DNA of 64,000 nt from Desertimonas flava. GTDB lineage: Bacteria > Actinomycetota > Acidimicrobiia > Acidimicrobiales > Ilumatobacteraceae. The first letter of the stretch is position 1. Each line of letters opens with the position of its first letter. The DNA lies in contig NZ_QKYK01000006.1 in the NCBI RefSeq assembly GCF_003426815.1, positions 1 through 64,000 on the forward strand. The letters are read 5' to 3'. The notes beneath the pieces are model-generated. The model had not been told where the DNA came from, searched no databases, and worked only from the letters and a program-made list of their open reading frames with translations. Shown here one piece after another: positions 6,168-22,922 of this stretch. The translations under genes were made by a program, and so were the position numbers.

Positions 6168-7139
6168 TCATCGAGACGTCCGAAGGCGGGACACGGCGAG
6201 CGGCAGCACGGCGAGGAGGATGGCGAAACCGAGGATCACGGTCTGCAGGTAGGAGTTGATGCTGGTGTAGTTCAGGCCGTTCTCGAGGACGCGCAGGAGC
6301 ACGACGCCGAGCATCGTCCCGGGAAGGTTGGGCAGCCCGTTGCGGAACATCGCCATGCCGAGGAACACGGCGGCGATCGACGTCAGCATCCACGGGTTCG
6401 GCGCCGTCAGGTTGGCGGTGGCGTTGTTCGCCGACTGGAGGATCCCGGCCGCGGCAGCGGTGACGCCGCAGATGGCGAACGCCAGCAGCCGCATCCGGGG
6501 CACGTTGATGCCGGCGTAGCGGGCAGCGTCGGGGTTGCCGCCGACGGCGTACATCTTGCGGCCGAGCGGGGTCTGGTCGAGCAGGAACCAGATCACGGCG
6601 GCGACGGCGAGGGCGAAGAGCACGCGGTTGGGGATGCCGAGCACCTGACCGCGTGCGACGGCGGCGAAGTTGTCCTGCACCAGGCTGTACACGGGAGACC
6701 CGTCGACGCGGAACGACGCCACATTGGCGAAGATCAACGACGTCGCCAGCGTGGCGATGAAGGCGAGGATGCCGAGACGGGCCACGAGCAGGCCGTTGAA
6801 CACACCGCCGAGCAGGCCGATGAACAGGCCGAGGAGGATGGCGAGCAGCACGTTGGACGGGTCGTGCGGGTCGCCGTCGAGGGTGGTGGTCGACACGAGC
6901 ACGCCGGTCGACACGGATGCGAGCGCGGCCAGTCCGCTCACCGAGAGGTCGAACTCGCCGACGACCATCACGACCGTCTGGCCGGCGGCGACGATGCCGA
7001 CGAACGCCACCGCACCGAGGACGTTGTTGACGAGATTGACCTTCGACAGGTAGCGGTCGCCGTACAGGGCGCCGAAGATGGCGACCATCGCGAGGAGGGC
7101 GAGCGGTCCCGCGAACGGCCGCAGTCGGGTGAGAGTCAT
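6168..7139 (-). CDS. Ribose-type ABC transporter permease
   Basis: 323 residues, strongly hydrophobic with 8-10 predicted membrane helices, matching the BPD_transp_2 (RbsC/XylH) family. The region VVMVVGEFDLSVSG (about residues 60-73) is the family signature in which a short polar loop separates helices. It forms the membrane channel of the importer with the ATPase at 7136-8701 and the binding protein at 3490-4572. Its start codon overlaps the ATPase stop by 4 bp (ATGA), indicating translational coupling. Confidence 0.92.
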   Translation of the reverse strand: MTLTRLRPFAGPLALLAMVAIFGALYGDRYLSKVNLVNNVLGAVAFVGIVAAGQTVVMVVGEFDLSVSGLAALASVSTGVLVSTTTLDGDPHDPSNVLLAILLGLFIGLLGGVFNGLLVARLGILAFIATLATSLIFANVASFRVDGSPVYSLVQDNFAAVARGQVLGIPNRVLFALAVAAVIWFLLDQTPLGRKMYAVGGNPDAARYAGINVPRMRLLAFAICGVTAAAAGILQSANNATANLTAPNPWMLTSIAAVFLGMAMFRNGLPNLPGTMLGVVLLRVLENGLNYTSINSYLQTVILGFAILLAVLPLAVSRLRTSR

Positions 7140-8701
7140 GAGGCCTTTCTGCCGTAGCAGGCGAGGAGGAGGTCGTGTTCGGTGGTGGTGGCGGTGGCGA
7201 ACGTGCCCGTCGAGGCGCCCTCGTGCATGACGAGGATGCGATGGGTCAGACCGAGCAGCTCGGGCAGCTCCGAGCTCACCACGACGACAGCGGCGCCGGC
7301 GGCGGCGCGCTCCTCGATCAACCGGTAGATCTGGCTCTTGGTGGCCACGTCGACGCCGCGCGTGGGCTCGTCGAGCAGCAGCACGTCCGGGTGGAGAGCG
7401 AGGAACTTGGCCAGCACGACCTTCTGCTGGTTGCCGCCCGAGAGCGTGAGCACCGGCTGAGTGAGCGACCGGTAGCGCAGGTCGAGCTGCTCGGCGAGGC
7501 GAGTGGCGTGGCGGCGGCTCCGCGCCCGTGACATCACCGCACCGGCGAGGCGCCCGGCACCGCCCCGACCGGCGCCGTACGTGTGCCGGGCCACGGTGGT
7601 GAGGTTGACGTTGCGCTCGATGTCGCTCGGCACGAGACCCGACGTCCTGCGTTCCTGGGGCACGAGCGCCACGCCTCGGCGGTGTCCGGCGCGCACACTG
7701 CGCGGGGCGAGCGGTTCCCCGTGGAGGTCGATCGTCCCTCCGGCACGGGGTTGCACACCGGCGATCATGCGCAGGATCTCGCTGCGACCCGAGCCGGCCA
7801 GACCGGCGATGCCGAGCACCTCCCCGGCGCGCACCTCGAAACCGACGTCGGTGACGCGCGGCCCCGAGAGCCGTTCCACGCGGAGCACGACGTCGCCTGG
7901 CTCGGCCGCCTTGGGCGGAAAGATCGCGTCGATCGGCCGGCCGGCCATGGCCGCGACGAGACCGTCGACGCTGGCATCGGCGATATCACCCTCGGCGACG
8001 AGTTGACCGTTGCGCATCACCGAGTAGGTGTCGCACACCTCGAGCACCTCCTCGAGCCGGTGCGACACGTACAAGATGGCCACCCCGAGGGCCCGCATGC
8101 GTCGCATGGCATCGAACAGGAGGCGGGACTCGGCGTCGGTGAGGGCCGCCGTGGGTTCGTCGAGGATGAGCAGCCGGCTGTCGTGCGACAGGGCCCGGGC
8201 GAGCGCCGTCATCGTCCGCCCGACCGGGCTCAGCGAGGACACGTCGGCCCTGACGTCGATCGTCACGCCGAGGTCGTCGAACAGCTTGCGGGCGCGGGCG
8301 TGCAGAGCGCGCCAGCGGATGGCACCGAGGCGGGTGGGCACGTCGTGGCCGAGCAGTGCGTTCTCGGCGACGGACAATCCGGGGACGATGGACAGCTCCT
8401 GGTACAGCGTCGAGATGCCGTGGGCCATCGCCGAGCGCGGATCGTCGAGGTGCAGGGGATCGCCGTCGATCTCGACGTGGGCGTCGTCGGGCCGCACGAC
8501 GCCGGAGAGGATCTTGATCACCGTCGACTTGCCGGCGCCGTTCTCGCCGAGCAGGGCGCGCACCTCGCCGGCCTCGATCGTCAGGTCGACACCGTCGACC
8601 ACCGTCACTCCCCCGTACGACTTGGTCAGCCCGCGGGCGACCAGACGCGGCGGAGCCGCGCTCATCACGCCGCTCGCCACGGAAGGATCCACCGCCGACA
8701 T
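7136..8701 (-). CDS. Ribose-type ABC transporter ATPase with two nucleotide-binding domains
   Basis: 521 residues with two fused ABC ATPase domains, the RbsA/XylG arrangement. The first has Walker A GENGAGKST, signature LSPVG (degenerate) and Walker B LLILDEPTAAL. The second lacks a canonical Walker A (GLAGSGRSE) but has signature LSGGNQQKV and Walker B LLLDEPTRGVD. This asymmetry is normal for the family. It is the first gene of the operon and starts 228 bp from the divergent kinase gene, across the 27-bp repeat array. It energises sugar import from the cytoplasmic face. Confidence 0.93.
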   Translation of the reverse strand: MSAVDPSVASGVMSAAPPRLVARGLTKSYGGVTVVDGVDLTIEAGEVRALLGENGAGKSTVIKILSGVVRPDDAHVEIDGDPLHLDDPRSAMAHGISTLYQELSIVPGLSVAENALLGHDVPTRLGAIRWRALHARARKLFDDLGVTIDVRADVSSLSPVGRTMTALARALSHDSRLLILDEPTAALTDAESRLLFDAMRRMRALGVAILYVSHRLEEVLEVCDTYSVMRNGQLVAEGDIADASVDGLVAAMAGRPIDAIFPPKAAEPGDVVLRVERLSGPRVTDVGFEVRAGEVLGIAGLAGSGRSEILRMIAGVQPRAGGTIDLHGEPLAPRSVRAGHRRGVALVPQERRTSGLVPSDIERNVNLTTVARHTYGAGRGGAGRLAGAVMSRARSRRHATRLAEQLDLRYRSLTQPVLTLSGGNQQKVVLAKFLALHPDVLLLDEPTRGVDVATKSQIYRLIEERAAAGAAVVVVSSELPELLGLTHRILVMHEGASTGTFATATTTEHDLLLACYGRKAS

Positions 8702-11260: not shown

Positions 11261-12941
11261 CCGCTACGACCTCGTCGTCGTCGGCGCCGGCATCACCGGC
11301 GTGCAGGTCGCACGCGAGGCCAGCCTGCGCGGGTTCGGAGTGCTCTTGGTCGACAAGGGCGACTTCGGGTCGGGGACGAGCTCGGCGACCACCAAATACC
11401 TGCACGGCGGCATCCGCTACCTCGAGCAGTACGACGTCGCCGTCGTCCGGGAGAGCCTTCGAGAACGACGCATCGCCGCCCTCGCCGCGCCGCACCTGGT
11501 GCGCCGTACCCGCTTCCTCCTTCCCGCCTGGTCGTGGTCCAAGCCGGGCGCGCTCAAGCTCGGCGCCGGGGCCGCCCTCTACGACGCCCTGTCCCTCAAC
11601 CGCAACCGCGACGCGCCGTCCGGCCTCCGCATCGACCGCTCCCGCTGGCTCGGCCGCGACGACGTGCTGCGCGCCGTGCCCTGGCTCGAACCTGGCGAGC
11701 TGCGCGGCGCGGTGGCGATCACCGAGGTGCTCAACATCCACCCCGAGCGCCTGCTGCTGGAGTTCCTCCGCGACGCGATCGCCCTCGGCGCCACGGCCCG
11801 GAACCACACGGAGGTCACCGGCTTCTCCACGCGGCGTCGGGCCGACGGCAGCCTGGAGGTCCGTGGCGTCCAGTTGCGCGGCACCATCGACGGCACCGCC
11901 AGCTCCGTCGAGGCCGGAGCGGTCGTCAACGCCGGTGGTCCGTGGATGGGGACGGTGCTCGACCGGCTCGCCGGCGGCGTTCGTCGCTTCGGCCCCACGG
12001 TCTCGCCGTCGAAGGGCGTCCACCTCCTCACCCGACCGTCACCGGACGCGACGGCGGTGACCGACGCCGTGATGGCGCGGGCCCGCACCGGTCGGCACGT
12101 CGTGGTGTCGCCCTGGATGGGCCGCGAACTGATCGGCCCCACCGACACCCCCGTGGCGGACTCGCCCGACGACGTCGCCGCCGACGACGGCGACGTCGAC
12201 TCGCTGCTCGACATCGTCAACTCGTGCCGCGCACCATCATCCCGGCTCACGCACGAGGACGTCGACGACGTCACCGTCGGCATCCGTCCCCTCGTCGCCG
12301 ATCCGTCCGACGGCGACGGGCGCAGGAGCTACACGGCCAGCAGGCGGCATCGGATCTATGACCACACCGAGGACGGCGTCGCCGGACTCTGGTCGATCGC
12401 CGGCGGCAAGTGGACCACGGGCCGGGGTATCGCCGAGGACATGGTCGATCGGCTGGCCGGTGCCAGGGCCGGTCGCCGCTCACCGACACGGCGCCGTCCG
12501 GCTCCCAGCGCGGCCGGCTGGGCTGCCGAGCCATCGGAGGTGTTCCGCATCGCCTCCGCTCACCGACCCGGCGTCGCGCTCCCCGGCCCGGTCCGCGAGC
12601 ACCTCGCCCGCCTCTACGGCACCCGCGCCACCGACGTGATCGATCTCGTGGCCGACGAGCCCCGCCTCGCCGAGCCGGTCTCCGACCGCGCCGGTCAGCG
12701 TGACATCGCCGCCCAGGTCGTCGTCGCCGTGACCGACGAGGACGCCCGCACGCTTGCCGACATCGTCGACCGACGATTGGTGCTCGGCACGCTCGGTCGT
12801 GTCACGATCGACGACCTGCAGCGCGTGGCCGCCGTCGCCGCGCCGCTGCTCGGATGGGCCGGCGACGGAGCCCCGGCCGCGGCTGCCGAGTTCGAACGAC
12901 GCGAGCGTCGTCGGGCGCGGTGGGCGGCAGTGTCAGGCTGA
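11238..12941 (+). CDS. FAD-dependent glycerol-3-phosphate (or polyol-phosphate) dehydrogenase, GlpD family
   Basis: 567 residues from a GTG inside the preceding gene's 3' end. The FAD Rossmann motif VVVGAGITGVQVAREA (residues 13-28), the segment SSATTKYLHGGIRYLEQ and the C-terminal helical domain (about 440-560) match GlpD/GlpA flavoproteins, which oxidise sn-glycerol 3-phosphate to dihydroxyacetone phosphate and feed electrons to quinone. The same family includes EryB, which oxidises erythritol phosphate. Because the gene is fused translationally to a kinase/HAD operon beside a pentose-type importer, a polyol phosphate is a credible substrate. The last 9 bp overlap the convergent ferric-reductase-like gene. 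Confidence 0.88.
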   Translation: MTPPPLADRYDLVVVGAGITGVQVAREASLRGFGVLLVDKGDFGSGTSSATTKYLHGGIRYLEQYDVAVVRESLRERRIAALAAPHLVRRTRFLLPAWSWSKPGALKLGAGAALYDALSLNRNRDAPSGLRIDRSRWLGRDDVLRAVPWLEPGELRGAVAITEVLNIHPERLLLEFLRDAIALGATARNHTEVTGFSTRRRADGSLEVRGVQLRGTIDGTASSVEAGAVVNAGGPWMGTVLDRLAGGVRRFGPTVSPSKGVHLLTRPSPDATAVTDAVMARARTGRHVVVSPWMGRELIGPTDTPVADSPDDVAADDGDVDSLLDIVNSCRAPSSRLTHEDVDDVTVGIRPLVADPSDGDGRRSYTASRRHRIYDHTEDGVAGLWSIAGGKWTTGRGIAEDMVDRLAGARAGRRSPTRRRPAPSAAGWAAEPSEVFRIASAHRPGVALPGPVREHLARLYGTRATDVIDLVADEPRLAEPVSDRAGQRDIAAQVVVAVTDEDARTLADIVDRRLVLGTLGRVTIDDLQRVAAVAAPLLGWAGDGAPAAAAEFERRERRRARWAAVSG

Positions 12942-13514
12942 CGCCACCGGGTCGGTCACAGCGGTGCGCCCGGCGCGGCCGCGGGTGGCGCTGCGACCGA
13001 TGAGCGCACGGATCAGACCGGCCGCCACCGCCGTGCTCACCAGCAGCCAGGCGACCGCCTGGTACACGGGACTGCCGGCGTCGGTGCCGGCGAGCGCCCC
13101 GTGCACCACGGCGCACCACACCAGCACGGCGCTCAGCGAGTGGAGACGGCGCCACAGTCGCTTCGGGAGCCGCTTCATGAGGAGCGACGAGACGTGCACG
13201 ACCACGAGGATCCACATCGCGACGACGCCGAACGTCACGGCGACCGGCCGCCACGTCGAGGCCATCGGCACGAGCACCTCGATCGGCCCGAAATGCACGA
13301 AGTCGTCGGCGACGAGGGCGAGCACGTGAATCGCCGTGCCCACCACGACCAGCGAGCTCAGCCACCTGTGCATCGCCAGCAGCCACGCGGGGCGGTCGTG
13401 CGGCTTCATCGCTCGCGTCGCCAGCAGCACCCCGAGGACCAAGGCGGCCACGAGCAGCACCAGCGTCATCACGCCCGCAGCCCGCGCCAGATACCACCAC
13501 ACTTGCTCGTTCAT
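12933..13514 (-). CDS. Ferric-reductase-like transmembrane (heme b) protein
   Basis: 193 residues from the ATG at 13514. Six hydrophobic helices with the paired histidines expected of the ferric reductase-like (YedZ/MsrQ, Nox) fold: MHRWLSSLVVVGTAIHVLAL in helix III, VVVHVSSLL in helix IV and RLHSLSAVLVWCAVVHG in helix V. It should carry two b hemes and move electrons across the membrane. It is the last gene of a tightly coupled operon with ApbE; its ATG overlaps the ApbE stop (TGATG). An upstream in-frame extension would run into ApbE and is rejected. Function: a membrane electron conduit, perhaps for ferric iron or a flavinylated partner. Confidence 0.82.
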   Translation of the reverse strand: MNEQVWWYLARAAGVMTLVLLVAALVLGVLLATRAMKPHDRPAWLLAMHRWLSSLVVVGTAIHVLALVADDFVHFGPIEVLVPMASTWRPVAVTFGVVAMWILVVVHVSSLLMKRLPKRLWRRLHSLSAVLVWCAVVHGALAGTDAGSPVYQAVAWLLVSTAVAAGLIRALIGRSATRGRAGRTAVTDPVASA

Positions 13515-14467
13515 CACGAGGCGACCCCGATGCCGCGAGGACACCGCAGGGCGCGCCACGCGGCGTTGGCGACGAGCCGTCCGTCAGCTCGAACGGCGAG
13601 CACAGCGGCCTCGCCCACGAGCCGGTCGCGGCTGGCGAACCCGTCGACGAGGATCGCCGTGGCCAGTACCTCCGCATCGGCGGCCGCACGGGTCGCCACC
13701 GAGACCTGCACGATGTCCGGAGCCGCGACCCTGCTGACCGGGCACCCGGTGCGTGGGTCGACGACCGGACGGCCGCGGTGCCCGACGCCGCCGGGTGCGG
13801 GTCCCGTTCCCGACGTGGCGAGTCCCCCGTCGGCGATCGCCACGTGGTCGATCACTCCGTCCCAGCCGGGAGCTCGCACGGCGATCACGCTTGGGGAGAC
13901 CACCCGCAGGTCGCCACCGACGACGACACGCACGCCGGTCGCTCCCCAGGCCAGCAGATCGGCCGCCACGAGGTCGGCGGCGAGACCCTTGCCGATTGCT
14001 CCGCCATCGAGCTGCACCCCGGCGGGGAGGCGGATGCGCAGGCCGTCGGCGTCGACGATCGTCTCGTCGATCCAGTCCGACCGACCGTTCGTGTGATCGA
14101 GCGTGGTCGTCGCCTCGCCGTCCCGCCCGGACCACCACCTTGCCGGGCCCAGGCCGATGACTCCCGTCAGCAGCGTCGGATCGAAGGAACCCGCCGTTGC
14201 CCGCACCCCGCTGGCCATCGCGCCGAGCAGCACCACCGTCGACGGGTCGACGACCACCGGTCGACCGTCGGCGCGGTTGAGGCGCGAGATGTCGCTGTGC
14301 GGGAGGAATCGGCTCCAACACCGCTCGAGGTGCCGCAGCCGATCGAGAGCGGCGGCGGCGAGCCGGTCGCCGCGGCCGCGAGGGGCCGCCACCGTGATCT
14401 GCCCGCGGCAACCCATCACCCGCCCACGAACCGTCGACACCGCTACGCGGCTCGGCTCGAACGTCAT
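13514..14467 (-). CDS. apbE: FAD:protein FMN transferase
   Basis: 317 residues. Family motifs occur in order: CWSRFLPHSDISRLN, AGSFDPTLL, the substrate loop LDGGAIGKGLAADLV, VVVGGDLRV, LATSG and VVDPRTGCPV, with ATAILVDG near the metal site. ApbE transfers FMN from FAD to a Thr or Ser of membrane or exported flavoproteins. No classical signal peptide or lipobox is seen, so the site of action is unclear. Its ATG overlaps the small membrane protein gene upstream (ATGA), and its stop overlaps the ferric-reductase-like gene. No FMN_bind-domain substrate is encoded nearby, which is unusual for ApbE plus ferric-reductase operons. Confidence 0.92.
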   Translation of the reverse strand: MTFEPSRVAVSTVRGRVMGCRGQITVAAPRGRGDRLAAAALDRLRHLERCWSRFLPHSDISRLNRADGRPVVVDPSTVVLLGAMASGVRATAGSFDPTLLTGVIGLGPARWWSGRDGEATTTLDHTNGRSDWIDETIVDADGLRIRLPAGVQLDGGAIGKGLAADLVAADLLAWGATGVRVVVGGDLRVVSPSVIAVRAPGWDGVIDHVAIADGGLATSGTGPAPGGVGHRGRPVVDPRTGCPVSRVAAPDIVQVSVATRAAADAEVLATAILVDGFASRDRLVGEAAVLAVRADGRLVANAAWRALRCPRGIGVAS

Positions 14468-14811
14468 CGCGATCGCTCGGTCACGACATCGGCGATCGGC
14501 GGTGACGTCGACGAGGCGACAGCGGTCGTCACGGGAACCGGTGCCGAACCGCCGGGCGGGCTGGTGCTCGCCATCACGCTCAACGGGACGGCGGTCGGCG
14601 GCGGAACGGCGGATGGGGCGACGGTCGACACGACCCCTGAGCCCGCGGTCGGACCGGGTTCCAGGTCCGCGGGCGGCGGAGACGGCCGGGCGGTGATGCC
14701 GAAGTAGCCGACGAGGCCGAACGTGATCACGCCCGACGCCCCGAGCGTGACGTAGCGGGCGACCTCGGCGGGGCGGCGAGTGGCTGGACGGGGACGCGGA
14801 TCGTCAGTCAT
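14464..14811 (-). CDS. Small single-pass membrane protein in the ApbE operon
   Basis: 115 residues from the ATG at 14811, starting MTDDPRPRPATRRPAEVARY. One membrane helix (about residues 21-42, VTLGASGVITFGLVGYFGI) is followed by a Pro/Ser/Thr/Val-rich tail with no fold I recognise. It overlaps the neighbouring genes on both sides (8 bp with the acidic exported protein, 4 bp with apbE), so it belongs to the same transcript. The basic N-terminus suggests the N-terminus stays inside and the tail faces outward. Its role is unknown; an anchor or spacer for the ApbE/ferric-reductase module is possible. Confidence 0.75.
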   Translation of the reverse strand: MTDDPRPRPATRRPAEVARYVTLGASGVITFGLVGYFGITARPSPPPADLEPGPTAGSGVVSTVAPSAVPPPTAVPLSVMASTSPPGGSAPVPVTTAVASSTSPPIADVVTERSR

Positions 14812-15499
14812 CGCCACCGCCGTGACCGCTGCTGCCACTCCCGCTGCCGCTGTCCTCGTCCCCACTGCCCCTGCCACTGCCGCTGCTGCTGTCGTCGTCG
14901 CTTGCATCGTCGTCGCCTCTGTCGTCGTCGCTCGTGTCGTCGTCGGTGCGCACGGTCACGACGACGACGCCGCGCACGAGGCTCGCTTCGAATCGCACGT
15001 CGCCGCCCGCCGTCGAGCGCAGGCGGATCTCCACCGACGTCGAGTCCTCCTGCTCGGCCCGGTCGACCTCCCATCCCGGGTGCGGCGCGACCGACACGAT
15101 CGTGAGAACACCACCGGCCGTGTCGAGGATCGCCGTCGCCGCGTCACCGAGACGGAACGTCTGCTGGGTCGTCGATCCCGATGTCGTCGCGCCGGTCCCG
15201 ACCGGGGCCGTCGTGGTGGTGGAGGGTGCCGCCGTCAGAGGTGTGGTCGGCACGATCGCCGCCGTGGCCGCCGTCGTGGAGGGAGCGGTGGTCGTCGCGC
15301 CCGTCTCCACCGGCGGGGCGGTCGGGGCCGGCAGCGTGAGGTCCGCCTCGCCGGGACCGGACGTCGTGGGCGAGACCAGCGGCGCCGTCACGGGAGGTGC
15401 TGCGCTCTGCCGCAACACCTCGGAGTTGACCACTGCCGCCGCCGTACCGGCGACCAGCACGCCGCCCACGGAGAGGATCATCGCGAGGCGTGCCTGCAT
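14804..15499 (-). CDS. Exported acidic protein, first gene of the ApbE/ferric-reductase operon
   Basis: 231 residues. A signal peptide or anchor (MQARLAMILSVGGVLVAGTA) and a long Thr/Pro/Ala linker (about 33-110) precede a compact conserved segment (about 112-183: TFRLGDAATAILDT, then VSVAPHPGWEVD, then VRFEASLVRGVVVVTVR). The protein ends in a tail of Asp, Ser and Gly, likely to bind divalent cations. The conserved segment is clearly paralogous to the protein at 17890-18678. No family recognised. It is transcribed from a promoter containing a 21-bp box shared with that paralogue, divergent from the two-component system, so control by the response regulator is likely. Confidence 0.8.
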   Translation of the reverse strand: MQARLAMILSVGGVLVAGTAAAVVNSEVLRQSAAPPVTAPLVSPTTSGPGEADLTLPAPTAPPVETGATTTAPSTTAATAAIVPTTPLTAAPSTTTTAPVGTGATTSGSTTQQTFRLGDAATAILDTAGGVLTIVSVAPHPGWEVDRAEQEDSTSVEIRLRSTAGGDVRFEASLVRGVVVVTVRTDDDTSDDDRGDDDASDDDSSSGSGRGSGDEDSGSGSGSSGHGGGDD

Positions 15500-15505
15500 G
15501 GCCTC

Positions 15506-15564
15506 ACGGTAGGCAGCCCTGATCCGGCGGTCGGCCAGTGATCATCCAAGATTCGTCCAAGATC
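15506..15564 (-). promoter_or_regulatory. Promoter with response-regulator-like box (copy 1)
   Basis: A 21-bp box at 15544-15564 holds direct repeats TCCAAGAT at 15545-15552 and 15556-15563, one helical turn apart, as expected for an OmpR-family dimer. On the minus strand a -10-like TACCGT lies at 15511-15506, 7 bases from the ATG at 15499, implying a very short leader. A matching box with the same spacing lies before the paralogue gene (18724-18744). Confidence 0.65.
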
Positions 15565-15621
15565 TCCGCCGGAGGGCACCCTGCCGGTGATCACGGCGGC
15601 GTCGCCGAGCAGAATGAGAGC

Positions 15622-16368
15622 GTGAAGCTCCTGCTCGTCGAGGACGACCGGGCCATCGCGCGGTCCCTCACCGAGGGCCTGACTGCCGACGGCCACCACG
15701 TCGAGCACGTGTCCACCGGTCTGGACGCGATCGCCACGGTCACGCACGGCGACCACCAGATGATCCTGCTCGACCTCGGCCTGCCCGACCTCGACGGCCG
15801 CGACGTGTGCCGCGAGATCCGCCGCGTCTCGTCCGTGCCGATCATCATGATCACCGCTCGCGGCGACGAGCTGGATCGGGTGCTCGGCCTCGAGCTCGGG
15901 GCCGACGACTACGTCACCAAGCCGTTCAGCATGCGGGAGGTGCTGGCCCGCATCCGGGCCGTCGCCCGCCGAACGATTCCGTCGCCGACCGACTCCACGT
16001 CCTCGGCCCCGACGGCCGCAGCAACGCCCGGGACCGAGGAGTCCGTCCAGGCCATCGGGCCGCTTACGATCGACCGGCGGACACGGCGCGTCCACCTCGA
16101 CGGCACCACCGTCGAGCTCACGGCCAAGGAGTTCGACGTGCTCGCCTGCCTCGCCGACGACCCCGGCGCGGTGCGGACGCGCACCGAGATTCTCGAGCAG
16201 GTGTGGGACATGAACTGGTTCGGACCGACGAAGACCGTGGACGCCCACGTCGCCGCCCTCCGCAAGAAGCTCGGCGATCATCGCTGGATCGACGCGGTGC
16301 GCGGTGTCGGATTCCGGCTCGAGGTGCCCCCGGGGGTCGACGACGGATCGACGGACTCGACACCGTGA
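15622..16368 (+). CDS. OmpR/PhoB-family response regulator
   Basis: 248 residues from the GTG at 15622. The receiver domain (about 1-118) has acidic residues EDD (7-9), phospho-acceptor D51 in LLDLGLPDLDG, conserved Thr in MITARGDE and Lys in VTKPFS. A Pro/Thr-rich linker leads to a winged-helix DNA-binding domain (about 150-240: LTAKEFDVLACLA, then KTVDAHVAALRKKLGD). It is co-transcribed with the histidine kinase 7 bp downstream and divergent from the ApbE operon. It probably binds the repeated TCCAAGAT box at 15544-15564. Confidence 0.95.
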   Translation: MKLLLVEDDRAIARSLTEGLTADGHHVEHVSTGLDAIATVTHGDHQMILLDLGLPDLDGRDVCREIRRVSSVPIIMITARGDELDRVLGLELGADDYVTKPFSMREVLARIRAVARRTIPSPTDSTSSAPTAAATPGTEESVQAIGPLTIDRRTRRVHLDGTTVELTAKEFDVLACLADDPGAVRTRTEILEQVWDMNWFGPTKTVDAHVAALRKKLGDHRWIDAVRGVGFRLEVPPGVDDGSTDSTP

Positions 16369-16375
16369 GGTCGCT

Positions 16376-17791
16376 GTGAGGTGGCGGCTGCTCGCCGCGT
16401 TGCTCGGCGTCGTCGCGATCATGCTCGTCGCCCAGGATGTGCCGCTCGTGTCTCACCTCCGTCGCGTCGAGCGCGATCGCGAGCTCACCGACCTCGAACG
16501 GGACGCGTTCATCATCGCCGGCCAGGCCGCCACGGCGCTGCGGCTGGCCGACGATCCGGCCGCGGCCGATGACGCCGTCAGCCTGCAGTTCGATGCCCTC
16601 GTGGGCTCGATCGAGAACCACACGTCGGTGTTCGATCGCGACGTCGTGGTGGTCGACAGCGACGGCACGGTCGTCGCCAGCGCCGGCGGCGACGAGATCC
16701 CGGCCGGTGCCGATCTCAGCGCCGACGCCGACATCGCGGCGGCGCTCGGATTGACGCCGGCGGCGGGAGACGACGACGATGTCGTCTCGGTCGCCGTGCC
16801 GGTCCTCGACGGGGCGGCGGCGGTCGGTGCCGTTCGGCTGTCGTCACCGGCGTCGGTCATCGACACCCGGGCGAACCGTCGCGCCCGGGGCCTCGTCTGG
16901 GTCGCCGTGATCTCGCTCGGGGCCGCGGTGGTGGTCGGTCTGTTGCTCTCCAGCACCGTCACCCGTCCCCTGCGCCGGCTCCAACGATCGACCGAGCGGG
17001 TCTCGTCGGGCGACTTCGACGCCCGCGTCGACGAGTCCGAGGGCCCGGCGGAGATTCGGCAACTGGCCCGTTCGTTCAACGCCATGACCGAACGCATCGC
17101 CCGCTCCGTGGAGGAGCAGCGGTCGTTCGCCGGCGACGCGTCGCACCAGCTGCGCACGCCCCTGACGGCGCTCCGGCTGCAGCTGGAACGCACGACGGCC
17201 CTCGTCGGCACCGACCCGGACGGCGCCCTGCGGAACCTCGAAGCGGCCGCCGACGAGATCGCCCGGTTGCAGCGGATGATCGACGGTCTCCTCCTGCTCT
17301 CCCGGTCCGACGACCACGACACGACCGACCTCGTCGCCGTGCGGGTCGACGAGCTGGTGGCCGAGCGAGTTGCCGTGTGGGGGCCGCTGGCCGAGGAACA
17401 CGGCGTCGAGGTGACCTCCTGGGTCGCCGGGCCGGCCACGGCGACGGCCCTGCCGGGAGCGGTCGAGCAGATCGTCGACAACTACCTCGACAACGCCATC
17501 GCCGTGGCTCCGGAGGGAACGGCCGTCGAGGTGGTCGTCGACGTCGGCACGACACGTGAGCGACCGACGTCGGTGACGGTGCACGTGCTCGACCGTGGCC
17601 CGGGTCTGACCGACGACCAGCTCGCCGAGGCGTTCCGCCGCTTCTGGCGGGCACCGGACAACCGCCATGACGGCACGGGCCTCGGACTGGCGATCGTCGC
17701 CCAGCTGGCAGCATCGAGCGGCGGAACCGTGGCGCTCGAACGACGCCCGGGCGGCGGCATCGACGCCTGGGTCCGCCTCCCCGCCGCGTAA
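16376..17791 (+). CDS. HAMP-containing sensor histidine kinase
   Basis: 471 residues from a GTG just after the regulator gene. TM1 (about 4-24) and TM2 (about 166-188) bracket an extracytoplasmic sensor of about 140 residues with no recognised fold but notably acidic. A HAMP linker follows TM2. The dimerisation/phospho-acceptor H-box is ASHQLRTPLTAL (H257). The ATPase domain has N-box DNYLDNAIAVAP, G1 DRGPGLT and G2 GTGLGLAIVAQLA. It phosphorylates the regulator at 15622-16368. The signal is unknown, but the flanking genes (redox membrane proteins and acidic, possibly cation-binding exported proteins) suggest a metal ion or redox state (inference). Confidence 0.95.
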   Translation: MRWRLLAALLGVVAIMLVAQDVPLVSHLRRVERDRELTDLERDAFIIAGQAATALRLADDPAAADDAVSLQFDALVGSIENHTSVFDRDVVVVDSDGTVVASAGGDEIPAGADLSADADIAAALGLTPAAGDDDDVVSVAVPVLDGAAAVGAVRLSSPASVIDTRANRRARGLVWVAVISLGAAVVVGLLLSSTVTRPLRRLQRSTERVSSGDFDARVDESEGPAEIRQLARSFNAMTERIARSVEEQRSFAGDASHQLRTPLTALRLQLERTTALVGTDPDGALRNLEAAADEIARLQRMIDGLLLLSRSDDHDTTDLVAVRVDELVAERVAVWGPLAEEHGVEVTSWVAGPATATALPGAVEQIVDNYLDNAIAVAPEGTAVEVVVDVGTTRERPTSVTVHVLDRGPGLTDDQLAEAFRRFWRAPDNRHDGTGLGLAIVAQLAASSGGTVALERRPGGGIDAWVRLPAA

Positions 17792-17813
17792 CTGACGGGA
17801 TGCGCTCGCCCCC

Positions 17814-17852
17814 GTCGCTCCGAGATAGTGCCAGGCACTATCTCGGAGCGAC
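17814..17852. terminator. 19-bp perfect palindrome at convergent gene ends
   Basis: Arms 17814-17832 and 17834-17852 are perfect reverse complements around one central base. They are nested in an outer pair TGACGGGATG (17793-17802) and CATCCCGTCA (17863-17872). It separates the convergent kinase and acidic-protein genes. Confidence 0.75.
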
Positions 17853-17889
17853 CTGCCGGGATCATCCCGTCAGGTTGCGGGGCAGGGGG

Positions 17890-18678
17890 TCAATCGTCGC
17901 CGCCATGGTCGTCGTGGTCGTCGTCGCCACCGCCGGGCCCGCGGTCGCCACCGTGATCGTCGATGGTCGTGACGGTGGAACCACCCGACGGTGTCGTGAC
18001 CACCGTGCTCGAGGTCCGATCGTCGTCATCGTCGTCGCGGTCACCGCCGTGGTCGTCCACGGTCGTCACGGTCGAGCCACTGCCGGGCGTCGTCACCGCC
18101 GAACCAACGCCCGGCGTCACTGCCGAACCACCGCCCGGCGTCGTGGCCGCCGGTCCCGAACCCATGCCCGGCGTCGTCACCGACGGGCCGTCGTCGTCCG
18201 GGCGAATCGTCGCGACGGGCACGCCATCCACGATCGCCGCATCGAATCGGACCCGATCGATCGGGGACTCGAGCCGGAGCTCGAACGTTCCGTCGTCGTC
18301 CTGCTCGAATTCGACGATCGCCCAACCCGGATGCGGTGCGAGGGCGACGACCTGGAGCCGACCGTTCACCGTGTCGACGATCACGGTGGCCGCCTCGCCG
18401 ATGACGAAGCGTTGCTGCGTCGGTGCTCCGGGCACCGGTTCTCCGACCACGACGGCCTCCCCCGGCAGGGTCAGCACCGGGCCCGGGACCGACGCCGATG
18501 TCGGGACCGAGGAGGAGGAGGAGGAGGAACCCGGCGTGGACGAGCCGGTCGACGCCGGCTGGACGATTCCCGGCAACGACGCGGGGAGGCCGGGTGAGGC
18601 GGCATTCACCGCCGCCGACGCCGAGCCGGCGGTCAAGACACCGCCGAGAGAGAGGAGCAGGATCGTTCGTGTACGCAT
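17890..18678 (-). CDS. Exported Asp/His/Gly-rich protein, paralogue of the ApbE-operon acidic protein
   Basis: 262 residues from the ATG at 18678. A signal segment (MRTRTILLLSLGGVLTAG) and a Ser/Pro-rich linker precede a conserved domain (about 89-160) sharing FxxGEAATVIVDT, then VxxLAPHPGW, then VRFDAAIVDG with the protein at 14804-15499. The tail repeats TTPG and DDHGGDRDDDDDD-type blocks, with many Asp, His and Gly residues suited to Ca2+ or transition-metal binding. It lies convergent to the histidine kinase on the far side of the two-component pair and has a promoter box matching that of its paralogue, so both are probably targets of that system. Function unknown. Confidence 0.8.
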   Translation of the reverse strand: MRTRTILLLSLGGVLTAGSASAAVNAASPGLPASLPGIVQPASTGSSTPGSSSSSSSVPTSASVPGPVLTLPGEAVVVGEPVPGAPTQQRFVIGEAATVIVDTVNGRLQVVALAPHPGWAIVEFEQDDDGTFELRLESPIDRVRFDAAIVDGVPVATIRPDDDGPSVTTPGMGSGPAATTPGGGSAVTPGVGSAVTTPGSGSTVTTVDDHGGDRDDDDDDRTSSTVVTTPSGGSTVTTIDDHGGDRGPGGGDDDHDDHGGDD

Positions 18679-19966: not shown

Positions 19967-20051
19967 CTCCGGAGTGTCGCATGACACGCCGCGGGCCGCC
20001 TGCGAATTCGGGGTGGGGCTTCGCCGCCGCCCGCACCGCTGGGTATCGTGG

Positions 20052-20165
20052 GCGGCGAACGAGGGGGAGTAGCTCTCAATCCGTCGGTCGACATGCTGGC
20101 TTCGAGGGAAGTCCGGTCGGCGGGCCCGCACGTGCGGGCGAGCGAGACCTTCGGCCGAACGACCT
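20052..20165 (+). ncRNA. yybP-ykoY manganese riboswitch
   Basis: The leader of the GDT1-family exporter carries the conserved loop GGGGGAGTAGC (about 20063-20073), the central CCGTC and GACAT elements, a GC-rich hairpin GGGCCCGCACGTGCGGGC, and the 3' signature GCGAGACCTTCGG (20142-20154). In known members the two A-rich loops dock and bind Mn2+, switching on an Mn2+ exporter. Gene context agrees. The exact ends are estimated by eye. Confidence 0.85.
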
Positions 20166-20227
20166 TGCGTCGCGGCCGGGGTCGTTGCTCTGGTCGGGTC
20201 GCAATGTCCCGATCAGAAAGCCACACC

Positions 20228-20815
20228 ATGTCGCTACGAGAACTGCTCCGGGCCTTCGGCACGGTGTTCCCGGCCGAGCTGCCGGACAAGACGATGATCG
20301 CCACGATCGTCCTCGTCGCGAGGTATCGCCGGCCCCTGTGGGTGTGGGTCGGAGCCGTCGCCGCGTTCTCGGTCCATGTCACTGTCGCCGTCGCTGCGGG
20401 CAGCGCGATCGGCCTGCTTCCCGACGCCGTGGTCGACGCCGTCGTCGCGACGCTGTTCGCGGGCGGCGCGGTGATGCTCTTCCGGGCGGCTCGCAACAGC
20501 GACGACGAGGCCACCGCCAGAGAGCTCGCCGTGATGGCCACCCCGCGCGCCGCGGTGATCGGTAGCTTCGGCCTCGTCGTCCTCGCCGAGTGGGGCGACC
20601 TCACCCAACTCGCCACGGCAGGGCTCGCGGCGCGCAGCGACTCGCCGCTGGCGACGGGAATCGGTGCCCTGCTGGCGCTGGCCTCGGTGGCTGCGCTCGC
20701 CGCGACGTTCGGTCGCCAGCTCGTCGCCCGCATCCCGATCAGCAAGATCAACTACATCGCCTCGGCCGTCTTCGCCGGCCTCGCGGTCTGGACGTTGATC
20801 GAGCTGATCGCCTGA
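20228..20815 (+). CDS. GDT1/UPF0016 (MneA-type) manganese exporter
   Basis: 195 residues with six membrane helices. The duplicated family motif E-x-x-D-[KR]-T appears as FPAELPDKTMIA (first half) and as VLAEWGDLTQLA (second half). These acidic residues line the ion path in TMEM165/GDT1 cation transporters. Bacterial members export Mn2+, and the yybP-ykoY riboswitch immediately upstream fits this role. The ATG at 20228 is chosen because AGAAAG lies 7 bases upstream; an in-frame ATG at 20204 would add eight residues. Confidence 0.9.
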   Translation: MSLRELLRAFGTVFPAELPDKTMIATIVLVARYRRPLWVWVGAVAAFSVHVTVAVAAGSAIGLLPDAVVDAVVATLFAGGAVMLFRAARNSDDEATARELAVMATPRAAVIGSFGLVVLAEWGDLTQLATAGLAARSDSPLATGIGALLALASVAALAATFGRQLVARIPISKINYIASAVFAGLAVWTLIELIA

Positions 20816-20824
20816 TCGGTGAGT

Positions 20825-22141
20825 TCAGTGCTCACCGGGACCGAGCTCGATGCTCGGGTCGAACAGCATCATGTGGGGGCCGGCGGGACCCCTGGTGGTG
20901 GCCCGCTCGACATCGGTGAAGCTCACCCATGCGCTCCCGTCGGGGTCCGATGCCGTGAGCTCCCCCGACGTCGCCGCCTCGAACAGCCAGATCCCGTAAT
21001 CGCTGTTGCGCGGCTCACCGAAGTCGGGGTCGTTGTCCCACGGCGTCAGCAACGAGTTCGAGACGTACAGGCGGCTATCGTCCGGGCTCAGGCGCAGCAT
21101 GTTGGGATGCGGCACGGCCACGGTCGAGCGGAGCTGCGGCTGGAGCGGGTCGCTGATGTCGAACCGCTGCACGGTGTTGCCGAACCAGTTCGACACGTAC
21201 AGCGACATGCCGTCGTAGGACACGAGCAGGTCGACCGGTAGCTCCAAGCCGTCGTCGGTTCCGAGCACCTCCTGGAACTCGAAGTCTCCGTCTGCGTCGT
21301 CGTCGTGGGCGTACCAGACGGTGCTGGTGCCGGGCGTGTTGATGAACGCCCGCCGCACCCCTTCCCCTGGCAGGAAGCGCACTTCGAGGGCACCACTGTT
21401 GACGCCCAGGCTGGCGGTCTGGACGACGGTCTCGCTCTGCACGTCCCAGACCGCCACCTCGTCACCGAGGCATGTGGGCTCGATGCCGGCGGCGCAGAGC
21501 GCCGGTGACCCGAACGTCGTGCTGATCGCCACCTCGGCGTCGGGCGACATCGCGAAGTCGTACATGAAGGTCGGACCGGCAGTGCCCGCCTGCCGCTCCG
21601 GTCCGGGGCCGAAGTAGCCGACGAAGTCGCCCGTACGGTCGTCGATCTCGACGATGCCGCCGGGTTGGGTGGTGTCGTTGGCGGCACCGATCATCGGGGC
21701 CAACACCCTGCCGTGCATGGCCATGACGCCGTGGGGAACGGCGTAACCGCTGTCGGCGACGAGATCCTCGTTGACGGCGCCGAGCGTCATCGTCGATCCG
21801 TCGCTGCCGATGTCGAAGACGTGGATCCGGTTCGAGAAGAGCCCGGGCACGATGAGCCGGCTCTGATCGGCCGAGTAGCCGAAGTGGTGGAGCTCGTCGC
21901 CGACGTTCGGCATGTCGACCCGGTTGACGATCTGGCCGAAGTCGGGGTGTTGTGGGTCGGCGCCGATCACGGCGACGAAGTCGGGATCGTTCTCGCTCTG
22001 GGCGATCGTGCTGACGTAGAGAAAGCGCTCGTGTACGGGCTCGCCGTGCGCCGCCGCACGCTGCGTCGCTGCTGCGAGCGCAGCCGGGGCCAGGGCGACC
22101 GCTGCCAGCGCCAGGCGGATGGTGGATCGAGTGATGATCAT
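20825..22141 (-). CDS. Exported selenium-binding protein 56/methanethiol oxidase-like protein
   Basis: 438 residues, with a strong ribosome site (GGAGGAG) before the ATG at 22141. A signal peptide (about 1-31, ending TQRAAAHG) is followed by a beta-propeller-like domain matching SELENBP1/SBP56. Family marks are PNVGDELHHFGYS, NRIHVFDI, YDFAMSPDAEVAISTTFGSP, YDGMSLYVSNWFGNTVQRFD and PHPNMLRLSPDDSRLYVSNSLL. Relatives oxidise methanethiol to H2S, formaldehyde and peroxide using copper. Here the Cys-rich segment that follows the DELHH motif in many members is replaced by SADQSRLI, so selenium binding is unlikely. Export agrees with a periplasmic methanethiol oxidase role (inference). It is divergent from a TetR regulator across an inverted repeat. 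Confidence 0.8.
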   Translation of the reverse strand: MIITRSTIRLALAAVALAPAALAAATQRAAAHGEPVHERFLYVSTIAQSENDPDFVAVIGADPQHPDFGQIVNRVDMPNVGDELHHFGYSADQSRLIVPGLFSNRIHVFDIGSDGSTMTLGAVNEDLVADSGYAVPHGVMAMHGRVLAPMIGAANDTTQPGGIVEIDDRTGDFVGYFGPGPERQAGTAGPTFMYDFAMSPDAEVAISTTFGSPALCAAGIEPTCLGDEVAVWDVQSETVVQTASLGVNSGALEVRFLPGEGVRRAFINTPGTSTVWYAHDDDADGDFEFQEVLGTDDGLELPVDLLVSYDGMSLYVSNWFGNTVQRFDISDPLQPQLRSTVAVPHPNMLRLSPDDSRLYVSNSLLTPWDNDPDFGEPRNSDYGIWLFEAATSGELTASDPDGSAWVSFTDVERATTRGPAGPHMMLFDPSIELGPGEH

Positions 22142-22220
22142 CGTGTGACTCCTCCTTCGTTGCGGCCCCACCGCACGACCTCTCGGTCGATCGACCGATT
22201 CAACGAGATTGCACCGGTCC

Positions 22221-22270
22221 GCTCGATCCGTCAAGCGCTTATTTGGTGCTTGACGGGCCGATCGAGCGCG
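22221..22270. promoter_or_regulatory. Long inverted repeat in the divergent TetR/SBP56 promoter region
   Basis: The left arm GCTCGATCCGTCAAGC (22221-22236) and right arm GCTTGACGGGCCGATCGAGC (22248-22267) pair with a 4-base bulge around an AT-containing centre. Position and symmetry suit a TetR-family operator controlling both directions. Confidence 0.6.
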
Positions 22271-22313
22271 ACCAGACTCGGGTCGGTCGAACGATCGAAT
22301 CGGAGGCGGCAGA

Positions 22314-22922
22314 ATGGAGACGTGCGTAGCCGAGGCTCGGCACCCGGACACGGCCGCGGTGATCCTCGACGCGGCGCGTCGCTGTCTGCTCGCCGAGGGC
22401 TACGCGGCCACGTCCACGCGCAAGGTGGCGAGCGAAGCCGGCGTCCCGCTGTCACAGGTGCACTACCACTTCGGCTCCAAGGGCGGGCTGATGCTCGCGG
22501 TGCTCGCGGCCGAGGACCGTCGGCGACTCGACCGTCAGTCGGCGATGTACTCGGCGGCTGAACCGCTGTGGAAGCGCTACGAGCAGGCGTGCGACTTCCT
22601 CGAGGACGACCTCGACTCGGGCTACGTGCGCGTGCTCCAGGAGATGATCGCCGCCGGGTGGTCCACGCCGGCGATCGCCGAGAAGGTGCGCGGGATGCAG
22701 CAAGGGTGGTTCGACCTGCTCACCGACGTTGCCTCGGAAGCGGCCGAGCGGCTCGGTGGGCTCGGCCCGTTCACACCTCGCGAGGTCGCGACCCTCATCG
22801 GCATCGCCTTCATCGGCGGCGAGGCCGAGATGCTGCTCGGCTTCGACCGGCAGCAGATGCCGGTTCGCGCCGCGCTGCGCCGCGTCGGCCAGATGATCCG
22901 CGCCCTCGAGGACCGAGCGTGA
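22314..22922 (+). CDS. TetR-family transcriptional regulator
   Basis: 202 residues. The N-terminal HTH (about 12-58) reads VILDAARRCLLAEGYAATS, then VASEAGVPLSQVHYHFGSK, a standard TetR DNA-binding domain. The C-terminal helical domain has no recognised ligand family. Its TGA overlaps the GTG of the hydrolase-glycosyltransferase fusion, so it is the first gene of that operon and probably senses its substrate. A long inverted repeat (22221-22270) upstream is the likely operator, shared with the divergent SBP56-like gene. Confidence 0.92.
   Translation: METCVAEARHPDTAAVILDAARRCLLAEGYAATSTRKVASEAGVPLSQVHYHFGSKGGLMLAVLAAEDRRRLDRQSAMYSAAEPLWKRYEQACDFLEDDLDSGYVRVLQEMIAAGWSTPAIAEKVRGMQQGWFDLLTDVASEAAERLGGLGPFTPREVATLIGIAFIGGEAEMLLGFDRQQMPVRAALRRVGQMIRALEDRA

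Follow-up and report, generated by a model that had tools for sequence, protein, structure and literature searches.

What does ApbE act on at a locus from which FMN_bind, its customary partner, is absent? The question is raised by positions 12933-18678 of a 64,000-nucleotide stretch of Desertimonas flava DNA, the whole of which is called the window here (G+C content ~70%). At this locus an ApbE gene stands between the genes of a one-helix protein, TM1, and of a ferric-reductase-like membrane protein, FRE. By comparing related loci, we arrived with modest confidence at TM1 as the missing ApbE substrate and flavin carrier of a TM1-ApbE-FRE electron-transfer module, of which the window locus is one copy. 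TM1 is the new element of this account. A sequence-only reading of the same DNA had listed the one-helix protein without comment; its broader proposal of an extracytoplasmic redox module that lies beside two-component genes and lacks FMN_bind is supported as likely. We refer to loci in the order FRE-FMN_bind-ApbE as type I and to those in the order TM1-ApbE-FRE as type II. The features that carry the argument are the following.

14464-14811, minus strand: TM1, a one-helix protein with a Pro/Ser/Thr/Ala-rich tail, proposed as the ApbE substrate (comparison across loci)
14695-14751, minus strand: membrane anchor of TM1, of an anchor family related to the anchors of some FMN_bind proteins
14467-14481, minus strand: C-terminal tip of TM1, TERSR here and [ST]-x-[GA]-S in relatives (tip comparison)
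13514-14467, minus strand: ApbE-like protein with a diverged active site and scant room for a signal peptide behind TM1; it belongs to the PF02424 fold family (E 1.2e-33), and its best solved relative is 1vrm (E 2.1e-15)
13754-13771, minus strand: site of the catalytic His of ApbE, RPVVDP here against HH..DP in relatives (alignment, 63+33 rows)
12933-13514, minus strand: FRE, a membrane protein resembling ferric reductases (MsrQ-like) and containing two His pairs (PF01794, E 3.2e-8)
13326-13370, minus strand: first heme-ligand-like His pair of FRE (alignment of type II rows)
13101-13142, minus strand: second heme-ligand-like His pair of FRE (same alignment)

The lack of FMN_bind (PF04205), noted earlier for the locus, was borne out and extends to the genome (6.2 Mb in 73 contigs, 96.6% complete), in which no match was found at E 0.001; the same search was positive in 4 of 14 control genomes. 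Neither TM1 nor the exported proteins described below contain the domain. Within a sample of 296 genomes of the class, ApbE is present in 151 and FMN_bind in 50. Among 20 fetched FMN_bind loci, 17 have the type I order; no ApbE was detected in two, and the remaining one is ordered differently. We also selected by hand 80 loci from the ApbE listing: FMN_bind occurs in none of them, FRE lies directly behind ApbE in 49, and 26 of these 49 also have a response regulator and a kinase in the stretch. Together with 13 loci picked by the core of the exported proteins and the window locus, they make up 63 class ApbE-FRE loci; L045 has ApbE, FRE and the core, with FRE not directly downstream, and was kept outside this set. 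From two other classes we took the 34 loci returned for the best ApbE matches, which are not a random draw. A split in the ApbE tree (support 0.856) has the FMN_bind-linked proteins together on one side (17 of 146 tips), and the window ApbE lies outside that group.

TM1 is found directly upstream of apbE at 62 of the 63 class ApbE-FRE loci, and consists of a single helix between a basic N-terminal part and a tail rich in Pro, Ser, Thr and Ala. It has no Pfam or NCBIfam match. Candidates were required to have a hydrophobic stretch and a tail of which more than half is P, A, S, T, G or V, a rule that could favour Ser/Thr-rich frames; a single candidate was available at 61 of the 63 loci, and the shuffled controls were drawn from the same frames. 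L253 and L301 have no upstream candidate by this rule, and tips were scored for 62 class and 32 outside proteins.

The C-terminal tip of TM1 is conserved far beyond the shuffled controls (1000 shuffles of the last 50 residues). The strict motif, [ST]-x-[GA]-S followed by no more than a single residue, occurs in 47 of 62 class proteins (shuffle mean 0.97, maximum 7), and a loose form, [ST]..S, in 54, including the window protein with TERSR (mean 4.3, maximum 13). The eight failures of the loose form comprise four ends bounded by Cys (L154, L157, L161, L260) and four in which a comparable sequence lies 2-5 residues further in (L073, L160, L178, L282, the last with unknown bases). Outside the class, 24 of 32 proteins have the strict tip (mean 1.1, maximum 5), and [ST].[GA][ST] falls within the last nine residues in 30 of 32 (mean 7.1, maximum 15). 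L286 and L293, whose upstream frame is possibly wrong, were scored as misses; L314 and L315 have an identical TM1 end and entered the count separately, each as a miss of the strict motif. Cys-bounded TM1-like ends such as CSGSKC and CGPSSC were seen at two loci without FRE (L165, L176) as well as at the four with it.

The anchor of TM1 points to a relation with FMN_bind proteins. A hidden Markov model (HMM) of the anchor, built from 34 TM1s only, picked out six of the 21 FMN_bind proteins with E < 0.01, the best values being 6.5e-8, 1.1e-7 and 4.8e-6, and BLAST of one TM1/FMN_bind pair of one genome gave 30% identity across 93 residues (E 5e-5). The hydrophobicity rule misplaced the anchors of L036, L046, L053, L191 and L282, leaving the tips unaffected. 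The type I FMN_bind proteins (L134-L153) share with TM1 an N-terminal anchor and linker, whereas TM1 lacks their domain and has a terminal four-residue motif only. In sequence, TM1 has the look of an FMN_bind protein of which the anchor and linker are kept, while a terminal tag either stands in for the domain or is what remains of it.

The accessible parts of a 2025 review (PMC12052999) state that ApbE transfers flavin mononucleotide (FMN) from flavin adenine dinucleotide to the last Ser/Thr of D-x-x-[ST]-G-A-[ST], that this seven-residue target suffices, with a minor effect of changing its Asp to Ala, that flavin tags work best at a terminus, that His is the general base of ApbE, and that cytosolic ApbEs exist. 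The tip of TM1 agrees with the [ST]GA[ST] part of this target in spacing, residue type and place, and the sequence match is incomplete. On the enzyme side, the catalytic His is kept in 62 of 63 class ApbE rows and in all 33 other ApbE-FRE rows, the window protein being the sole exception among the 96, and the Ser site is Ser or Thr in every row. The Asp position of the Asp-Ser-His triad distinguishes the two kinds of locus. It is Asp in 17 of 17 resolved type I rows, whereas in type II it is Glu in 55 and Asn in 8 of the 63 class rows, and Glu in 11, Asn in 18 and Asp in 4 of the 33 rows outside the class. The four His of FRE are conserved in all 65 ungapped rows of 67 type II rows, and in 20, 20, 20 and 19 of 20 type I rows.

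The comparison shows the gene linkage, the presence of TM1, its tip motif, the anchor relation, the FRE His residues and the Ser/Thr and His of ApbE; from these we infer flavinylation, heme content, electron direction, acceptor, metal binding and regulation as follows. FRE, as a membrane protein with two pairs of heme-ligand His, would send electrons outward from a cytosolic or quinol donor. The helix of TM1 would be an anchor, its disordered tail would reach across the space outside the membrane, and a diverged ApbE without a signal peptide would attach FMN to the C-terminal Ser of [ST]-x-[GA]-S. The flavin tip would take electrons at FRE and pass them on to an external acceptor, possibly metal bound by the acidic tails of the core proteins, to judge from their acidity, and the two-component pair would control the module. 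In that case TM1 may be a naturally occurring flavin carrier of very small size, by which electrons leave the cell. More tentatively, we suggest that a phylum-wide branch of signal-less Glu/Asn ApbEs flavinylates the C-terminal Ser of a domain-less, anchored, disordered tether, which would shuttle electrons delivered by a diheme membrane protein to external acceptors, as a natural flavin tag in place of FMN_bind.

Several known systems come close to this proposal. In the MsrQ-like flavinylation clusters of Actinobacteria, as described in the parts of Meheust et al. 2021 available to us (PMC8238504), a PF01794 protein lies beside ApbE, as at the window locus, and outward electron transfer has been proposed. 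Those clusters typically, though not by strict definition, include an FMN_bind gene, whereas the window locus has none and has TM1 in its place; the window order TM1-ApbE-FRE also differs from the type I order. The same source reports ApbE without FMN_bind in 17% of genomes (2571 genomes) of its data set, implying other substrates, and describes DUF2271 and DUF3570 proteins as substrates of orphan apbE genes. These are ApbE partners without FMN_bind, as proposed for TM1, but are larger domains with a conserved [ST]GA[ST]; a relation to TM1 was sought via Pfam only, and none was found. The engineered Flavin-tag (covered in the part of PMC12052999 consulted) is likewise a short terminal peptide that serves as the sole ApbE target; unlike it, TM1 is natural, its third tip position is mostly Gly, its ApbE is diverged and its modification is putative. 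We found no description of a one-helix ApbE partner in the literature searched, including the accessible parts of PMC8238504, PMC12052999 and PMC11334425, a search that covered few subscription papers and is not proof of absence. Genomes that encode ApbE and no FMN_bind are common; if the proposal is true, TM1 is the acceptor at the FMN_bind-less ApbE-FRE loci of the phylum, natural flavinylation needs no folded domain, and the module offers a minimal natural flavin tag and an ApbE of altered active site.

A number of observations weigh against TM1 as the ApbE substrate. With Glu or Asn in place of the triad Asp in 63 of 63 class and 29 of 33 other ApbEs, transferase activity is putative. The third position of the tip is mostly Gly, not Ala, with a canonical [ST]GA[ST] near the end in just 3 of 62 class and 4 of 32 outside proteins, and changing the target Gly or Ala is reported to lower flavinylation (PMC12052999, in part). 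Four of the 62 class proteins end in Cys-bounded loops instead of the tip, and at ApbE loci that are not followed by FRE, the motif is seen in just 5 of the 20 candidates upstream. The rows share descent, for which the shuffles do not correct (the 47 strict tips have 44 distinct last-eight strings), and the anchor HMM, whose seeds were chosen by a basic motif, fails to detect 15 of the 21 FMN_bind proteins at E 0.01. Furthermore, ApbE is apparently without a signal peptide, while the TM1 tail should be outside, so the enzyme would need to act before export: the space between TM1 and the ApbE domain is at most 62 nt, unless apbE starts far inside the preceding gene. Flavin attachment ahead of export may be the rule in these loci, since the type I ApbEs behind FMN_bind likewise have little room for a signal peptide (2-111 nt between FMN_bind and the ApbE domain in 17 cases).

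The window copy itself fits the proposal poorly, in that its TM1 (TERSR) fails the strict motif and its ApbE, which keeps the catalytic Ser, has Pro for His and Glu for Asp. On contig C1 of the same genome we found a second locus of the same layout, with an exported protein, TM1, ApbE and FRE divergent from a response regulator and kinase, and with one exported protein only; its ApbE keeps the catalytic Ser and His, with Glu for Asp, and its TM1 ends in RTHGSR. From these alignments the window locus appears to be a copy, altered by drift, of a module found in many related bacteria. Since both the general-base His of ApbE and the strict motif of TM1 are gone, it is probable that the window ApbE no longer flavinylates or that the C1 paralogue has taken over this role. 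Joint loss of the base and decay of the tag would be expected if the two work together; this is a single case, and 14 other class TM1s miss the strict motif despite the presence of the His in their ApbE.

The alternative that survives best, although we consider it unlikely, is that no flavinylation takes place: the diverged ApbE would be flavin-binding or inactive and serve FRE from the cytosol, and the tail and tip of TM1 would be a structural subunit or docking peptide of FRE. This would agree with the replacement of the triad Asp in all class rows, with the additional loss of His in the window ApbE, with the scant signal-peptide room before the ApbE domain, and with the composition of FRE, in which Pfam found only Ferric_reduct and no flavin/nicotinamide adenine dinucleotide domain. 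Against it stand the retention of the general-base His in 95 of 96 rows and of Ser/Thr in all of them, the tip spacing, which equals that of the known ApbE target, and the resemblance of TM1 anchors to some FMN_bind anchors.

Other alternatives turn on the remaining genes of the locus. For these genes and those listed above, export and the number of helices were assessed by visual inspection or from literature on the family.

14804-15499, minus strand: ExpA, exported protein with an acidic tail (reading frame; paralogy with ExpB)
14936-15169, minus strand: all-beta core domain of ExpA (AlphaFold2, pLDDT 92.4)
15622-16368, plus strand: OmpR-type response regulator (Pfam)
16376-17791, plus strand: sensor kinase of the HAMP/HisKA type, whose start is uncertain and whose frame is open from 16304 (Pfam)
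17890-18678, minus strand: ExpB, second exported protein, with an Asp/His/Gly-rich tail (reading frame; paralogy with ExpA)
18190-18420, minus strand: core domain of ExpB (alignment with the ExpA core)

ExpA, TM1, ApbE and FRE are probably one transcript, because these minus-strand genes overlap by 8 nt (ExpA/TM1), 4 nt (TM1/ApbE) and 1 nt (ApbE/FRE, counted from the ATG of FRE). The regulator (Response_reg and Trans_reg_C in Pfam) and the kinase (HAMP, HisKA and HATPase) are divergent from them, and ExpB faces the kinase end. The arrangement first read from the sequence, with four coupled genes, a divergent OmpR/HAMP pair and a second exported paralogue behind the kinase, is confirmed, as is the common core of two exported proteins with different tails: ExpA and ExpB are 49% identical across 86 residues (E 5e-24, far beyond chance).

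The exported components had further been assigned to an undescribed family, which agrees with our searches, in that no trustworthy Pfam, NCBIfam or PDB-sequence match was obtained. ExpA and ExpB have no Pfam match; 32 core rows gave scattered weak Pfam matches only, the lowest E being 0.0083 (CBM13-like, one row) and the commonest PepSY_2 (three rows, E 0.032), and the best match to PDB sequences had E 0.37. An NCBIfam match of the ExpA linker to GltJ (19.3 bits against a cut-off of 450) was taken as chance, as was the one locus (L003) returned by a related-locus search with the ExpA core, where the frame containing the match resembles, by eye, an FAD monooxygenase. The structure prediction suggested earlier (AlphaFold2, two sequences) gave a seven-strand beta domain (best pLDDT 92.4, pTM 0.79; five models span 55.9-92.4) without a trustworthy structural relative: the best Foldseek E was 0.04, and the best VIA match, 4k15_A (lmo2686; Z 7.7, rmsd 2.5, 74 of 78 residues), is under the trust level of the tool and may reflect just a common arrangement. 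In the core alignment only a Gly-Trp pair is invariant, and there is no conserved Cys or His.

Searches with a three-core alignment found the core in 72 of the 296 class genomes (E 0.01); with a 32-row profile (E 1e-4), 34 of the 396 genomes in a phylum sample were positive, 24 of them from outside the class. Among 40 core-picked class loci, 14 have ApbE, 14 have FRE, 25 have both regulator and kinase and none has FMN_bind; ApbE and FRE are absent from the stretches fetched for 20 core-picked loci outside the class. Conversely, the core occurs in 9 of the 49 ApbE-picked ApbE-FRE loci, 5 of which were picked with the core known. In the co-occurrence test suggested by the sequence-only reading, the core was often found near two-component genes, and its use as a hallmark of the ApbE system was dropped. 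Being mostly found without ApbE, the core is, from its distribution, a general exported beta domain, often near two-component genes, and not a mark of the ApbE system; by the same comparison, the partner of ApbE-FRE is TM1, not the exported core.

Core genes flank the regulator-kinase pair on both sides without ApbE at 7 of the 40 loci (L040, L044, L047, L056, L058, L060 and L063) and, as in the window, with ApbE at L048; L228 likewise has the pair between core proteins with no ApbE found, and L240 is alike with the regulator alone detected. Judged from gene order, the arrangement without ApbE is a recurring two-component/exported-protein unit. Several core loci outside the class look by eye like lipoproteins with tandem cores. 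At L233 and L239 the core lies behind repeats with acidic linkers, which by eye we take to be cell-wall-binding. At L053 (978-2972) a core protein and TM1 share one open frame of 665 residues, possibly a fusion or a frameshift.

These loci bear on a second alternative, that the locus is a two-component sensor of metal or envelope stress, with the acidic exported proteins as sensed ligands and ApbE-FRE as an accessory output. The regulator and kinase at 25 of 40 core-picked loci and the seven loci with cores on both sides and no ApbE speak for such a sensor. As an explanation of TM1-ApbE-FRE, which recurs without cores at 40 of 49 loci, it is silent, and it is compatible with TM1 as the ApbE substrate; we give it a low probability.

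A third alternative, implied by the earlier suggestion of flavin staining, makes the exported core proteins the substrates or carriers of ApbE. ApbE is present at 14 of 40 core-picked loci, and the ExpA linker contains two TGAT sequences; however, [ST]GA[ST] occurs in just 2 of 27 exported proteins of ApbE loci, no excess over the shuffle mean of 3.1, and is absent from ExpB and the C1 paralogue, the core is mostly found without ApbE, and 40 of the 49 ApbE-picked ApbE-FRE loci lack the core. We consider this account very unlikely in general. Given its two TGAT sequences, ExpA may have an acceptor role in the window copy, although such sequences are no commoner than in shuffles.

That the tip of TM1 is conserved merely through overlap with the Shine-Dalgarno sequence and start codon of apbE is scarcely credible and was judged insufficient: tip codons at many loci could contain the apbE start (e.g. 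AAT GGC AGT), but the motif persists with apbE in all three frames relative to the strict-tip TM1s (+0 in 2, without overlap, +1 in 28 and +2 in 17) and with two Ser codon families (last Ser AGY in 34 and TCN in 13 of 47), neither motif form is found at the C-terminus of any of the 21 FMN_bind proteins, of which 17 are encoded immediately before ApbE, and two TM1 copies without apbE behind keep a tip-like end (L035, ...TSGTTSASG; L051, ...DATSGGSN). L035 has two TM1 copies, at 7464-8207 and 6329-6946, with near-identical ends (TSGTT[SK]ASG), and apbE follows the latter only.

A PDB search with FRE returned three weak matches, to SAKe entries of repeated short stretches, which were taken as chance. 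Near the locus, the frame at 20048-20815 (plus strand) seems similar to the UPF0016 cation-transporter family, and we take the protein at 20825-22351 (minus strand) to resemble selenium-binding/methanethiol-oxidase-like propellers.

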